From assembly GCA_029262035.1 (NCBI GenBank), contig JAJDAE010000206.1:1-34422 (forward strand): 34,422 nucleotides of DNA, read 5' to 3'. This document shows positions 19,346-24,474 of the stretch, piece by piece. Each line of letters opens with the position of its first letter. Within the stretch, counting starts at the first letter, position 1. Made by a program: the position numbers and the translations under genes. Source of the stretch: Candidatus Zhuqueibacterota bacterium (GTDB lineage: Bacteria; Zhuqueibacterota; Zhuqueibacteria; Oceanimicrobiales; Oceanimicrobiaceae). The notes under the pieces are model-generated. The model was not told the origin of the DNA. It was given only the letters and a program-made list of their open reading frames with translations, and did not search any database.

Positions 19346-19693
19346 CTAATTTAACTTTTTCAGAAGATTAATGTACTCTCTCTCTAATTTACAAAACTCT
19401 ATTCTTTCACAACCCGACCTTAGAAAGACGACTACTTTTTTTTTCTTGGGCAGCATCTCTTTTTTTTGTTGTACAATTTCTTTAACTCGTCTTCTTGCCC
19501 TATTGCGTTTTACGGCGTTACCCACCTTACGTGAAACGGCAAAACCGTATTTAAGAGCATTTGATTCGGTAAAATAGAGAGCAATGTGTCTCGATGATAA
19601 TTTTTTGCCGTGTCTAATGAGAGATGAAAAATCAGATCGTCTTTTTAAAATTTCAGCCTTATCCAAATGTTGATCACAGAACCTATCTATCAC
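19346..19693 (-). CDS. rnpA: Ribonuclease P protein component
   Basis: The 115-residue basic protein has the RNR motif of RNase P protein ([17 protein letters not shown]-like, split here) and an early [16 protein letters not shown] block. It binds the RNase P RNA and helps 5' maturation of tRNAs. The start chosen is GTG 19693, which overlaps the end of rpmH by 11 bases. A TTG at 19666 would remove nine residues and is also possible, since neither has a clear ribosome binding site. Overlap with rpmH is common in this cluster. Confidence 0.93.
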
Positions 19694-19826
19694 TAACTGT
19701 TAGGCTTTTTCTGCCCCTTGCTCTCCGCCTTTTCAAGACCAAACGGCCACCCTTTGTTTTCATTCTTGCACGAAAACCATGTTTGTTAACTTTTTTCCGG
19801 TTACTTGGTTGAAACGTTCTTTTCAT
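19683..19826 (-). CDS. rpmH: 50S ribosomal protein bL34
   Basis: A 47-residue very basic protein begins [18 protein letters not shown] and continues [20 protein letters not shown], a clear bL34. It is a small structural protein of the large ribosomal subunit. The final SLTVSDR is a normal ending. An AAGGAA ribosome binding site lies about five bases before the ATG. The gene starts the leftward operon and is preceded by a good sigma70-type promoter. Confidence 0.97.
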
Positions 19827-19909: not shown

Positions 19910-20039
19910 GCCAAATTGTAACTAAAAAATGCGACTCGTTTAATAATTATTAATCTCATTTTTATACTTTTCCTTGACATTCAAGGCTTATTTATTAACT
20001 TTTTTTTCGCCTGAAAAGAAGTATAGCCATAGAATTACT

Positions 20040-20048
20040 TGTGGATAA
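20040..20048 (-). promoter_or_regulatory. DnaA box, perfect
   Basis: TGTGGATAA is the exact complement of the TTATCCACA consensus. It lies about 240 bases before dnaA. Confidence 0.9.
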
Positions 20049-20190
20049 CTTAAAAAAGATTACGTTTTTTTTTGAAAACGAACACACGGCTCGAGACTCA
20101 ATTCTAATTACATGGCCTTAAGTTTCTTTTTATTAGTTATAACTTATAGAAAGAAAGTCTCTTCTGATGGAGGTTTGATTGTTTATAACT

Positions 20191-20199
20191 TGTGGATAA
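20191..20199 (-). promoter_or_regulatory. DnaA box, perfect, near dnaA promoter
   Basis: TGTGGATAA matches the consensus exactly on the minus strand, 90 bases before dnaA. A weak sigma70-like pair, TTGATT (20175-20180) and TAAATT (20197-20202), would overlap this box. DnaA bound here could repress its own gene; this is inference. Confidence 0.88.
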
Positions 20200-20288
20200 A
20201 TTAAATAGCTCAGAAAAAGGCACCATTGTCAAGGGAGGGTTCTTGCATTGCCCTAATAACATTAATACAAACCATGAGGGTATGTTAA

Positions 20289-21644
20289 ATGTCTATATCA
20301 TGCACTACAGCTTGGGATCAATGTCTAAACATCATTCAGGATAGCATAAATCCACAAAGCTTTACAACCTGGTTTAAGCCGATCAATCCAGTAAATTTGA
20401 ATGAAAAAAATTTTACGATTGAGGTGCCAAGCCAGTTTTTTTATGAATGGTTAGAGGGACACTACAGCGTATTACTTAATCAGGCCTTGTTGGAAGTTCT
20501 GGGCGAAAAGACCAATATTTCTTACACCATTGCACCAAATCAAAATGGATACGATCAATTGTCCAGAATGCCATCTATGGATAAAAAGAAGCCGGTAAAC
20601 CATTTTGATAAAAAAAGCAATTTGATAGAGCGCTACAACTTTGAGACATTTGTTGAAGGAGCGAACAATCAATTTGCCCGGGCTGCTGCGCTAGCTGTAT
20701 CTGAAGCACCTGGCAAAACAACCTTTAATCCGCTGGTTTTATATGGCGGTGTCGGCTTGGGGAAAACTCATTTAATACAGGCCATTGGAAATTTTTGTCT
20801 CGCCGAAGAGTTGATTCAAAATGTTCTTTATGTGGATAGTGAAAAATTTACGATTGAATTTATTAATTCTATTAAGAATAATAAAACAACCGAATTCAGT
20901 TCGATCTATAGAAACGTTGATTTATTAATCGTCGATGATATCCAGTTTTTCACGAATAAAGAAAGAACACAGGAAGAATTTTTCCATACATTTAATGCAC
21001 TTTACAACGCCGGCAAACAGATAGTACTGTCCTCTGACCGGCCACCAAAAGAGCTGGTTGGTGTTGAGGAACGTTTAATCTCTCGTTTTCAATGGGGACT
21101 TGTAGCAGATATTCAACCTCCTGACCTGGAAACCCGAATTGCTATTTTGCAGCAAAAAGCAGAAGAAAATGGCACAACTATACCTGGAGACATCATTGAT
21201 TTTATTGCAACTAATGTGACTTCAAATATAAGAGAGTTGGAAGGTGCGTTGATAAGGCTGCTCGCGTATTCATCCTTAAATGGAACAGATATCACAATAG
21301 AAGTGGCAAAAGATGTTCTTAAAAATCTCAGTCTAAAGAAAAAGAAAAATATAATGATTGAGGAAATACAAAGAATTGTAAGTGAGCATTTTGATATAGC
21401 AGATGACATGCTCCGAGCCAAGTCCAGAAAAAAAGAAATTGCTTATGTTCGCCAAATAGCAATGTACCTATCCAAGGAAATGACGAAGAATTCGTTAAAA
21501 ACGATAGGCCTACATTTTGGTGGAAGGGATCATAGCACAGTTATCCATGCCATTCAATGCGTTGAGAAACTGGTCGCAAATGACAAGGCCGTATCCGAAG
21601 AAGTTGCTGAAATAAAAAGAAAGATTGAAATGTCAAGTATGTAA
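20289..21644 (+). CDS. dnaA: Chromosomal replication initiator protein DnaA
   Basis: The 451-residue protein has all four domains. Domain I (about 1-80) begins with the WDQCLNIIQDSINPQSFTTW pattern. Domain II is a short linker (about 85-115). The AAA+ domain has Walker A GGVGLGKTH at 153-161, Walker B LLIVDDIQFF near 212-221, and the Arg-finger region ERLISRF at 261-267. Domain IV carries the DnaA signature GGRDHSTVIHAI. It binds DnaA boxes and opens the origin. A GAGGG ribosome binding site lies eight bases before the ATG. DnaA boxes lie on both sides of the gene. Confidence 0.98.
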   Translation: MSISCTTAWDQCLNIIQDSINPQSFTTWFKPINPVNLNEKNFTIEVPSQFFYEWLEGHYSVLLNQALLEVLGEKTNISYTIAPNQNGYDQLSRMPSMDKKKPVNHFDKKSNLIERYNFETFVEGANNQFARAAALAVSEAPGKTTFNPLVLYGGVGLGKTHLIQAIGNFCLAEELIQNVLYVDSEKFTIEFINSIKNNKTTEFSSIYRNVDLLIVDDIQFFTNKERTQEEFFHTFNALYNAGKQIVLSSDRPPKELVGVEERLISRFQWGLVADIQPPDLETRIAILQQKAEENGTTIPGDIIDFIATNVTSNIRELEGALIRLLAYSSLNGTDITIEVAKDVLKNLSLKKKKNIMIEEIQRIVSEHFDIADDMLRAKSRKKEIAYVRQIAMYLSKEMTKNSLKTIGLHFGGRDHSTVIHAIQCVEKLVANDKAVSEEVAEIKRKIEMSSM

Positions 21645-21647
21645 AAG

Positions 21648-21878
21648 TTATTCACATCACATGTTGATAACACAGACTTTTATGTGGAAACGTATGTTGA
21701 TAACCTTTAAGTAATTAACAAAAAAAAATAAATACAAAAAGTTATTAACAACTGATACGGGTTTTCAACAGATTTATAACATTTAATCCACACAAAAACT
21801 AAATTTTTCAAAACTTATAGCCACATTAAAAAATAAAAACTTAGCACAAATAAAAATGAAGTTATCAACATATCCACA
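21648..21878. other. oriC: Cluster of near-consensus DnaA boxes (oriC, downstream part)
   Basis: Boxes with one mismatch to TTATCCACA lie at 21648-21656 (TTATTCACA), 21662-21670 and 21695-21703 (both TGTTGATAA), 21784-21792 (TAATCCACA), 21862-21870 (TTATCAACA) and 21870-21878 (ATATCCACA). Weaker matches are at 21683-21691 and 21742-21750. They lie in the 323-base dnaA-dnaN gap, which contains no gene. Their density and position mark the active side of oriC. Confidence 0.85.
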
Positions 21879-21960
21879 GCCCCTATATACTACTACAAAA
21901 TTCTCTTGTTTTATAAAACTTTATTTATTAGATTTTTGTTTGTTCAAAAAAGATAATTGA
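21862..21960. other. Putative unwinding element: box pair, C-rich spacer, CTA trios, AT-rich DNA
   Basis: Two adjoining DnaA boxes (21862-21878) are followed by GCCCC (21879-21883), then CTA at 21883-21885 and two in-phase CTA trios at 21890-21895. About 65 bases of AT-rich DNA lead up to the dnaN ribosome binding site. This order matches the basal unwinding system with DnaA-trios described in Bacillus subtilis (box, GC-rich spacer, 3'-GAT-5' repeats on the bound strand). The number of strict trios is small. Confidence 0.65.
21906..21934 (+). promoter_or_regulatory. Possible dnaN promoter
   Basis: TTGTTT (21906-21911) and TAGATT (21929-21934) are separated by 17 bases. The pair lies 34 bases before dnaN inside the AT-rich unwinding region, where chance matches are likely. 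Confidence 0.3.
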
Positions 21961-21967
21961 GGCTCTC

Positions 21968-23083
21968 ATGAAATTTAGCGTTAACAGAAAAGAACTTCAC
22001 AAAGCGATTCAAAACATAATTGGTGTTGTTCCTGTAAAAACAACTATTCCAATTTTAGCAAATATATTATTTGATCTACGGGGTGACGATTTAATATTAA
22101 CCGGAACCGATTTGGAAGTTTCAATTTCAACAAAAATTAAAGTTCAAGGTGACTTAGATGGTTCGCTTACAATACCCGCTAAAATTTTATATGAAATAAT
22201 CAGAGAGCTTCCGGATATTCCCGTTGAGATAGATTGTAATGAAAATAATATTTCTTTAAATACCGAAAAAGGATTTTACAAACTGTCAGGGGAATCAAAA
22301 GAAGAATTTCCAAAAATTGCAGTTGATGAAAGTGAAGGCAGTTTTCAGATAAATGCCAAACACTTCATCAGCATGATCAATAAAACTATTTTCGCTGTCT
22401 CAACAGACGAATTGAGAACAACCCTGATGGGCGTTTATTTGCAAGTTCTGGAAAATGAATTAAGAATGGTTGCAACGGATGGTCACCGTCTGGTTAAGAT
22501 TATAGATAGCACTTTTAAGGCCCCTGGCTTGCAAAAAGAAGCAATAATTCCCACCAAAGCCTTAAACTTATTAACCAAAAATGTTCAGGATGACACTGAA
22601 ATAAAAGTGAGCCTTAGTGACGACCATATTGTTTTCCAGTTTGGTGAAACCACAATTTTCGGAAAAGAGATAGAGGGCCAATTCCCAAACTACGAACGTG
22701 TGATTCCGGTAGACAATGATAAAACAGTTCTTTTGAGTAGAGACCTGCTTAGTTCTTCTGTAAAGCGTGTTTCAATTTTTTCAAACTCGATCACACATCA
22801 AATAAGACTTTCAGTCAGTGATAGTTTACTGGAAGTACAATCTGAAGACATAGAATTTGGTGGAGAGGCAAAGGAAAAAATTACAGCAGATTATTCGGGG
22901 GAACCCATCAATGTAGGTTATAATGCGAATTACTTACTTGATATTTTGAAACACGTAGCTGTTGACGAAATTGAATTGCATCTTAAAGACGCCGTCAGCG
23001 CTGGTATAATTTATCCTGCAAACCAAAAAGAAGATGAGAATATCCTGATGCTTCTAATGCCTATTAGACTCAATGATAATTAA
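21968..23083 (+). CDS. dnaN: DNA polymerase III sliding clamp, beta subunit
   Basis: The 371-residue length and full-length similarity to DnaN are clear. It starts MKFSVNRKELHKAIQNIIGV, has VATDGHRLVK in the middle, and ends with LMPIRLND, the usual MPMR-type end. Three clamp domains of about 120 residues each are implied. The dimeric ring tethers polymerase III to DNA. The ribosome binding site GAGG lies five bases before the ATG. The gene overlaps recF by 11 bases. Confidence 0.97.
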   Translation: MKFSVNRKELHKAIQNIIGVVPVKTTIPILANILFDLRGDDLILTGTDLEVSISTKIKVQGDLDGSLTIPAKILYEIIRELPDIPVEIDCNENNISLNTEKGFYKLSGESKEEFPKIAVDESEGSFQINAKHFISMINKTIFAVSTDELRTTLMGVYLQVLENELRMVATDGHRLVKIIDSTFKAPGLQKEAIIPTKALNLLTKNVQDDTEIKVSLSDDHIVFQFGETTIFGKEIEGQFPNYERVIPVDNDKTVLLSRDLLSSSVKRVSIFSNSITHQIRLSVSDSLLEVQSEDIEFGGEAKEKITADYSGEPINVGYNANYLLDILKHVAVDEIELHLKDAVSAGIIYPANQKEDENILMLLMPIRLNDN

Positions 23084-24194
23084 GAATATTTCTTTATTAA
23101 ACTATAGAAATTATGAAACTGCAGAAGTCAACTTTTCACAAAACATCAATTTAATTTATGGATTAAATGCTCACGGAAAAACAAATTTCCTTGAAGCCAT
23201 TTTTCTTCTTTGTTTAAGCAGAAGTTTTCGCCAGTCTAAAAATAGCGAGTTACTTAATAAAGAAGCAAATACTTTTACAATAAACGGAACATTTATAAAA
23301 GACAACGAAAGTGAAAAGAAAATAGTTGTTCACTATATCAGGGATGGTAAAAAAGAAATAAGCATCAACAAAAAAAAAATTAATAGCCACTCAAAAATAA
23401 TTGGCCACTTTCCCATAGTTATAATGGCTCCGGATGAGTTTAGAATTACTTCCGGCGGTCCCTCAGAGCGACGAAGGTTTTTGGATATACTCTTGTCGCA
23501 AGTGAGTTTAACTTATCTCGCTGATCTTCAGGAATATAACAGAATTCTAAAACAACGGAATATGCTACTAAAAAATATACGTGACAGCAAGTTTGCTGAC
23601 GAAGCAAGTTTAGAAGTTTGGACGGAAGGTTTAATAAAAGCAGGCAGTCGCATTATTAATTTTAGATTAAAATTTATACAAAGTTTTTCGAAAATACTAA
23701 ATTCCATTTTTAAAAGATTTGAAAAAAATGGAGATACTCAATTAACTATAGAAAGTACAATCCAACAGAAAAATGAGGAAATGACAGAAGATTCATTTCG
23801 AGATGCTTTGCTATCATTTAGAAAAAAAGAACGAATACTCGGAACAACTTATGTGGGCCCTCACCGCGATGATCTGCTTTTTACTATCGATGGGATGGAT
23901 GTAAGAAAGTACGGCTCACGCGGCCAACATAAATCACTATTAATATCATTAAAAATCGCTGAATATAATTATTTGTATCAACAAAAGGAAGAACAACCAC
24001 TTTTGCTTCTGGATGATTGTTATTCCGAATTGGATGAAATGCGCGAAAAAAGTGCATTTGAATCTGTGCAGGGGCTGGGGCAGATAATATTAACAAGTCC
24101 CAGGAAAAACATACTGGAAAACAAAGACTATTCACACAGGGATGTAAATTATTATTTTGTAAAGCAGGGAACAATTGAACAAATCGAGAACTAA
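23073..24194 (+). CDS. recF: DNA replication and repair protein RecF
   Basis: The 373-residue protein is an SMC-like ATPase. Walker A is GLNAHGKTN near residue 30-38. The RecF-specific block EFRITSGGPSERRRFLD lies near 120-136. The signature and Walker B parts are GSRGQHKSLLISLKIAEY and LLLLDDCYSELDE. It loads RecA at single-strand gaps with RecO and RecR. The start ATG lies inside the end of dnaN, and the end overlaps the DUF721 gene by 20 bases, so the three are probably translationally coupled. Confidence 0.96.
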   Translation: MIIKNISLLNYRNYETAEVNFSQNINLIYGLNAHGKTNFLEAIFLLCLSRSFRQSKNSELLNKEANTFTINGTFIKDNESEKKIVVHYIRDGKKEISINKKKINSHSKIIGHFPIVIMAPDEFRITSGGPSERRRFLDILLSQVSLTYLADLQEYNRILKQRNMLLKNIRDSKFADEASLEVWTEGLIKAGSRIINFRLKFIQSFSKILNSIFKRFEKNGDTQLTIESTIQQKNEEMTEDSFRDALLSFRKKERILGTTYVGPHRDDLLFTIDGMDVRKYGSRGQHKSLLISLKIAEYNYLYQQKEEQPLLLLDDCYSELDEMREKSAFESVQGLGQIILTSPRKNILENKDYSHRDVNYYFVKQGTIEQIEN

Positions 24195-24474
24195 AACCCC
24201 ACAAATTTTGGGTAATTCAATATCCCTTTTCTTGAAAAATTTGGGCCTTGAAAGGAAGGTTAAGGAATATGAAATTATAGCACGATGGCCGGAACTTGTC
24301 GGCGAAAATGTCGCTTCTGCTACCATCCCTGAAAAAATACAAGATGAAATTCTTTTGGTCAGAGTAAAAAACAGTTCATGGCGGCATGAGCTACTTTATC
24401 TAAAGAATCATATTCTTTCTAAAGTAGAAACCGACATTGGCAAGGGAATAATTAAAGATATCAGATACATCTAA
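24175..24474 (+). CDS. DUF721 (DciA-like) protein
   Basis: The product of 99 residues begins at TTG 24175, with an AGGGA ribosome binding site four bases upstream inside recF. The pattern is an N-terminal helix, then ARWPELVGENVASATIPEKI, then LLVRVKNSSWRHELLYLKNHIL. This is the DUF721 domain, which has a KH-like fold. Members in many bacteria act as DciA, the replicative helicase loader or regulator used where DnaC is lacking. Position between recF and gyrB is the conserved one and supports a replication role here, by inference. Confidence 0.88.
   Translation: MNKSRTKTPQILGNSISLFLKNLGLERKVKEYEIIARWPELVGENVASATIPEKIQDEILLVRVKNSSWRHELLYLKNHILSKVETDIGKGIIKDIRYI

Follow-up and report, generated by a model that had tools for sequence, protein, structure and literature searches.

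The stretch of DNA analysed here (34,422 nucleotides, hereafter the window) makes up a single contig in a metagenome assembly of 5.31 Mb, which comprises 372 unordered contigs. The genes rsmG, mnmG, mnmE, yidC, rnpA and rpmH are read leftward in the window, and dnaA, dnaN, recF, dciA, gyrB and gyrA rightward (Table 1). The sequence-only reading of this DNA had placed a strand switch of the genes in this region, and we found that all major genes left of 20 kb indeed run leftward and those right of 20 kb rightward. The first leftward gene, rpmH, was assigned by direct reading of the sequence rather than by profile scan, and the genes past rnpA were identified as yidC, mnmE, mnmG and rsmG (matches to PF02096, MnmE, GIDA and GidB). 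The PF00308 match of dnaA is the sole copy in the genome, and its product gave a full-length match to Bacillus subtilis DnaA (8btg; E 5.4e-136). A gene of the DciA helicase-loader family lies between recF and gyrB (24175-24474). A tree of DnaA proteins identified the host as an FCB-group relative of Bacteroidota, Calditrichota and Latescibacterota.

Table 1. Genes, DnaA boxes and origin elements around dnaA, in window positions.
Feature	Position	Strand	Remarks
rnpA (RNase P protein)	19346..19693	-	Pfam PF00825, E 2.8e-25
rpmH (ribosomal protein L34, 47 aa)	19683..19826	-	first leftward gene
Putative dnaA promoter	19974..20002	+	TTG-N19-TAACTTT, Bacteroidota-like
Perfect DnaA box TTATCCACA	20040..20048	-	distal of upstream pair
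Weak DnaA box	20180..20188	-	2 mismatches
Perfect DnaA box TTATCCACA	20191..20199	-	proximal of upstream pair
dnaA (451 aa)	20289..21644	+	PF00308, E 8.7e-68
DnaA box TTATTCACA	21648..21656	+	1 mismatch
DnaA box TTATCAACA	21662..21670	-	1 mismatch
DnaA box TTATCAACA	21695..21703	-	1 mismatch
DnaA box TAATCCACA	21784..21792	+	1 mismatch
Module box A TTATCAACA	21862..21870	+	1 mismatch; equivalent of B. subtilis box 6
Module box B ATATCCACA	21870..21878	+	1 mismatch; equivalent of box 7
GCCC spacer	21879..21882	+	4 nt
DnaA-trio array CTA-TATA-CTA-CTA	21883..21895	+	one-base phase slip after trio 1
Low-stability AT-rich tract	21884..21933		likely opening site
Putative dnaN promoter	21906..21936	+	TTG-N20-TAGATTTT; overlaps AT-rich tract
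dnaN	21968..23083	+	followed by recF, dciA, gyrB, gyrA

Clusters of DnaA boxes flank dnaA on both sides. The gap between dnaA and dnaN (21645-21967) holds exactly six boxes with one mismatch (shuffle mean 0.12; six reached in 0 of 500 shuffles), in agreement with the earlier claim of at least six such boxes downstream of dnaA. The last two of these, boxes A and B, are co-oriented and overlap by one base (joint sequence TTATCAACATATCCACA), and the alignment columns of box B are nearly invariant. Two perfect boxes upstream of dnaA had also been claimed, and they are present, with two or more reached in none of 500 shuffles; every one of the six family members retains this leftward pair, at a spacing of 137-157 bp. 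In the window it lies directly past the promoter-like dnaA motif, which recurs at the equal position in L083, L084, L085 and L087, and this arrangement fits what is expected of autoregulation. Most likely, the leftward upstream boxes control the dnaA promoter, and a second role as one half of an origin is possible.

The basal unwinding system (BUS) of B. subtilis combines tandem boxes with a GC spacer and trios (PMC8287927, PMC10721633), and the published search rule calls for three trios within 16 nt of a box (PMC8287927). We applied this rule with a box defined by at most two mismatches (or a tandem pair with at most two and four) and a trio array by at least three contiguous trios with a middle A (T on the given strand). 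Boxes A and B have one mismatch each, and box B is followed after 4 nt by the first CTA and after 8 nt by the first run of three trios. That run is provided by ATA-CTA-CTA alone, as a single base disrupts the phase that the usual 4-nt spacer sets. This inserted base (21886-21889) is absent from the other 29 of the 30 aligned modules and may be genuine or stem from an error in assembly. The site as a whole is unique: the 5.31-Mb genome has a single copy of the 17-base double box, and a profile of 35 positions, derived from relatives in the class, gave the window site as its sole strong match in the genome. Downstream of the spacer, the AT-rich 50-mer ranks among the least stable 0.02% of window 50-mers. 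The sequence-only reading had described boxes, GCCCC, CTA trios and AT-rich DNA in the order of Bacillus; the order stood and the spacer is read here as GCCC. To this we add that the trios do not share one phase and that the AT tract is in part a putative dnaN promoter.

This last point comes from a motif of the form TTG-N19-21-TAnnTTT, found before dnaN at 24 of 47 class loci (1.9 expected). The motif is also present at dnaN in the sister family f7, where the module is absent, so the AT-richness before dnaN belongs partly to the promoter. An assignment of the whole AT-rich stretch to the unwinding element was accordingly weakened by its overlap with this conserved promoter. Conversely, f7 modules that lie far from dnaN retain an AT tail (75-95% in seven genomes), indicating that such a tail belongs to the module. 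Promoter motifs of this Bacteroidota type stand before both dnaA and dnaN, and relatives share them, although the lineage does not belong to Bacteroidota.

Alignment of the dnaA-dnaN gap across relatives, which had been proposed as a check, showed that the six family relatives with dnaA all preserve the order of elements, as does most of the class, with the module close to the gap end. Among class genomes outside f7 with dnaA and module on one contig, the module lies 194-601 bp past dnaA on the same strand (32 of 32 genomes), and nearly all genomes that carry a module carry a single one. Using the second and third trios, which had played no part in picking the sites, we found NTA in phase at 33 of 58 positions (7 and 7 in the other phases; mean 9.2 and maximum 20 in 2000 shuffles). 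Even the GC-rich members L128 and L129 retain the pattern of box, spacer and trio. Our hand-made module finder imposes the 8-bp box spacing and favors a 4-nt spacer, and for this reason we rest both features on the alignment and on the profile matches in f7, a family kept out of training. No match to the module profile (R1) at E 0.01 was obtained in families f2 and f4 or in genus g12, although by eye many of their gaps hold degenerate forms of the module. In family f4 (L112, L119, L122) the tandem boxes apparently lie 9 bp apart rather than 8, while the spacer and trios are similar; two box registers may coexist in the class.

The genome being in unordered contigs, GC skew was computed contig by contig. 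In the window the skew changes sign at about 20 kb, with a cumulative minimum at 20011, upstream of dnaA and 1.9 kb left of the module. Among five family relatives, the cumulative minimum falls inside the gap (G005), within about 200 bp of the gap end (G002, G004), inside dnaN (G003) or just upstream of dnaA (G007). The skew minimum that had been predicted for this region is thus found in the gap, just past it or inside dnaN in four of the five at the level of contigs, with the window's own minimum 1.9 kb off. This check, like the alignment of the gap, turned out favourable to an origin here. In G012 the skew changes sign at dnaA.

We then examined family f7, in which dnaA and module are apart. 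Where dnaN adjoins dnaA in this family, the gap measures only 80-138 bp and the module is absent. A module profile trained without f7 found one strong module elsewhere in each of G029, G035, G038, G041, G044, G051, G058 and G062; the match in G016 was weak (E 0.385). In seven of eight genomes inspected, the module has its own cluster of three to six boxes (0.1-0.2 expected). The dnaA operon lies 17, 94 or 111 kb from the module or on a different contig, and perfect boxes are still found upstream of dnaA. Skew turns at or near the module and not at dnaA, which is clear in two genomes: the minimum is at 53.1 kb and the module at 53.5 kb in G041, and the minimum is at 121 kb, the module at 111 kb and dnaA at 17 kb in G016. 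The skew of G029 is broad and too flat for close placement (minimum 152 kb, module 174 kb, dnaA 285 kb), and that of G044, coarse and fine, is too flat to locate a minimum.

As to the surroundings of these loci, the f7 loci L226-L233 (G044, G041, G058, G035, G051, G029, G038 and G016, in this order) have the module away from dnaA. The G041 module adjoins carbamoyltransferase/SxtJ and TldD genes, with G058 and G051 alike by sequence, and the modules of G029 and G035 adjoin an HD/HD_assoc phosphohydrolase gene, with G038 alike by sequence. At L188 (G044:C5:2136000-2155999, from a 5-contig assembly), gyrB and apparently dnaN and recF are split into several reading frames, suggesting indel errors.

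The DnaA tree joins the f7 member to f10 (support 87); f10 members keep the module at dnaA, so the separation is derived. A move of the origin away from dnaA was considered and then reversed, since yidC lies 7-22 kb from the module in the five f7 genomes where the two share a contig. This instead implies that the dnaA operon moved, and its departure from an origin that stayed in place is the simplest account. We think it probable that the whole dnaA-dnaN-recF-gyrBA operon left the origin in f7, with the module and box cluster staying on the rnpA-yidC side. If so, the presumed halves of a bipartite origin have come apart in nature: the gap unit would be a one-part origin complete in itself, and the boxes ahead of dnaA would serve the gene and not the origin. 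The family shows that the module rather than dnaA marks the start site. No family of this kind, its dnaA apart from the origin, turned up in the literature searched.

Together, our results make it very likely that the dnaA-dnaN gap is the chromosome origin, with opening of BUS type at the low-stability AT-rich tract, and that the upstream boxes most likely control dnaA. Points that count against this reading are the phase slip in the window's trios, the local skew minimum 1.9 kb left of the module, the weak G016 match and the flat skew of G044 and G029. We observed directly the elements with their order, uniqueness and conservation, and also their association with the skew minimum; binding, filament formation, opening and loading are modelled on work in B. 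subtilis. By this analogy, DnaA would bind the box cluster of the gap and load from the overlapping tandem boxes (21862-21878), cross the 4-nt GC spacer onto the CTA trios and form a DnaA-ATP filament on one strand, and this filament would open the weak DNA; helicase loading would come next, probably via the DciA encoded just downstream.

The sequence-only reading had gone further and claimed a bipartite origin. Its oriC with a Bacillus-like module holds; its two-part form is doubtful, given that f7 keeps perfect boxes upstream of a separated dnaA. In a true bipartite oriC of the B. subtilis kind, the upstream boxes would loop to the gap as an indispensable second half; B. subtilis requires both of its halves in vivo (PMC6669920). 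The retention of the leftward pair in all six family members speaks for such a role. The f7 genomes argue against it without deciding the matter: their origin is one cluster beside the module, located elsewhere than the perfect boxes. Because those boxes have stayed upstream of the departed dnaA while the origin has its own cluster, the upstream boxes can be explained by autoregulation, and the window pair may do nothing else. In the genomes searched, the DNA upstream of dnaA yielded neither a module nor a trio array, which also counts against two halves, and we regard a bipartite origin as possible but doubtful.

Two further explanations concern the gap itself. The Bacteroidota-type promoter motif that overlaps the AT tract, and that persists in f7 without the module, would suit gap boxes that regulate dnaN only, with the AT-rich stretch as promoter and the origin elsewhere. 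This is extremely unlikely, as f7 modules without dnaN keep boxes, spacer, trios and AT tail, the skew turns at or near the module and the module occurs once per genome in nearly all carriers. The one-base insertion after trio 1, unique among the 30 aligned modules, could instead mean that the unwinding site of the window is degenerate, with trios out of phase, and that opening relies on a different site. We consider this quite improbable: ATA-CTA-CTA still supplies three trios within the published distance of the box, neighbours also have imperfect arrays in equal order, and the insertion may lie in the assembly.

The window is a well-supported case of a real origin of the already known BUS kind in an unstudied lineage, and it provides a base-level origin model for a bacterial class known solely from metagenomes. 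The module of box, spacer and trio keeps its identity across genome rearrangement and GC-rich drift. Where origin boxes and dnaA-control boxes stand side by side they are indistinguishable from sequence alone, and f7 offers a comparative means to separate them; the dnaA-origin separation in this sister family is the most useful by-product of the analysis.

Pelliciari et al. (2021; PMC8287927) reported a BUS in 85% of 2,070 species, with tandem boxes as the commonest form, and the window conforms to the rule used in that search. Its class is uncultured, with members known only as metagenome assemblies. The DnaA of the window can be aligned over its full length with the B. subtilis protein whose structure was determined on a BUS scaffold. 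With the B. subtilis incC BUS (boxes 6/7, GC spacer, trios) the window module shares the location between dnaA and dnaN, co-oriented tandem boxes 8 bp apart from start to start, a 4-nt GC spacer, CTA trios, an AT-rich tail and the orientation toward dnaN, and in a Siminovitchia locus of the Bacillota (L022) the letters of box and spacer, TTATCAACATATCCACAGCCC, are identical to those of the window. It differs from incC in that box A is TTATCAACA and not consensus, the window trios are out of phase, trio arrays in its class are mostly shorter (usually 2-5 against 5-8) and the AT tract coincides in part with a putative dnaN promoter of Bacteroidota type. The bipartite origins of B. subtilis and Helicobacter pylori likewise have boxes that flank dnaA or form two clusters, whereas f7 appears to manage without the second half.
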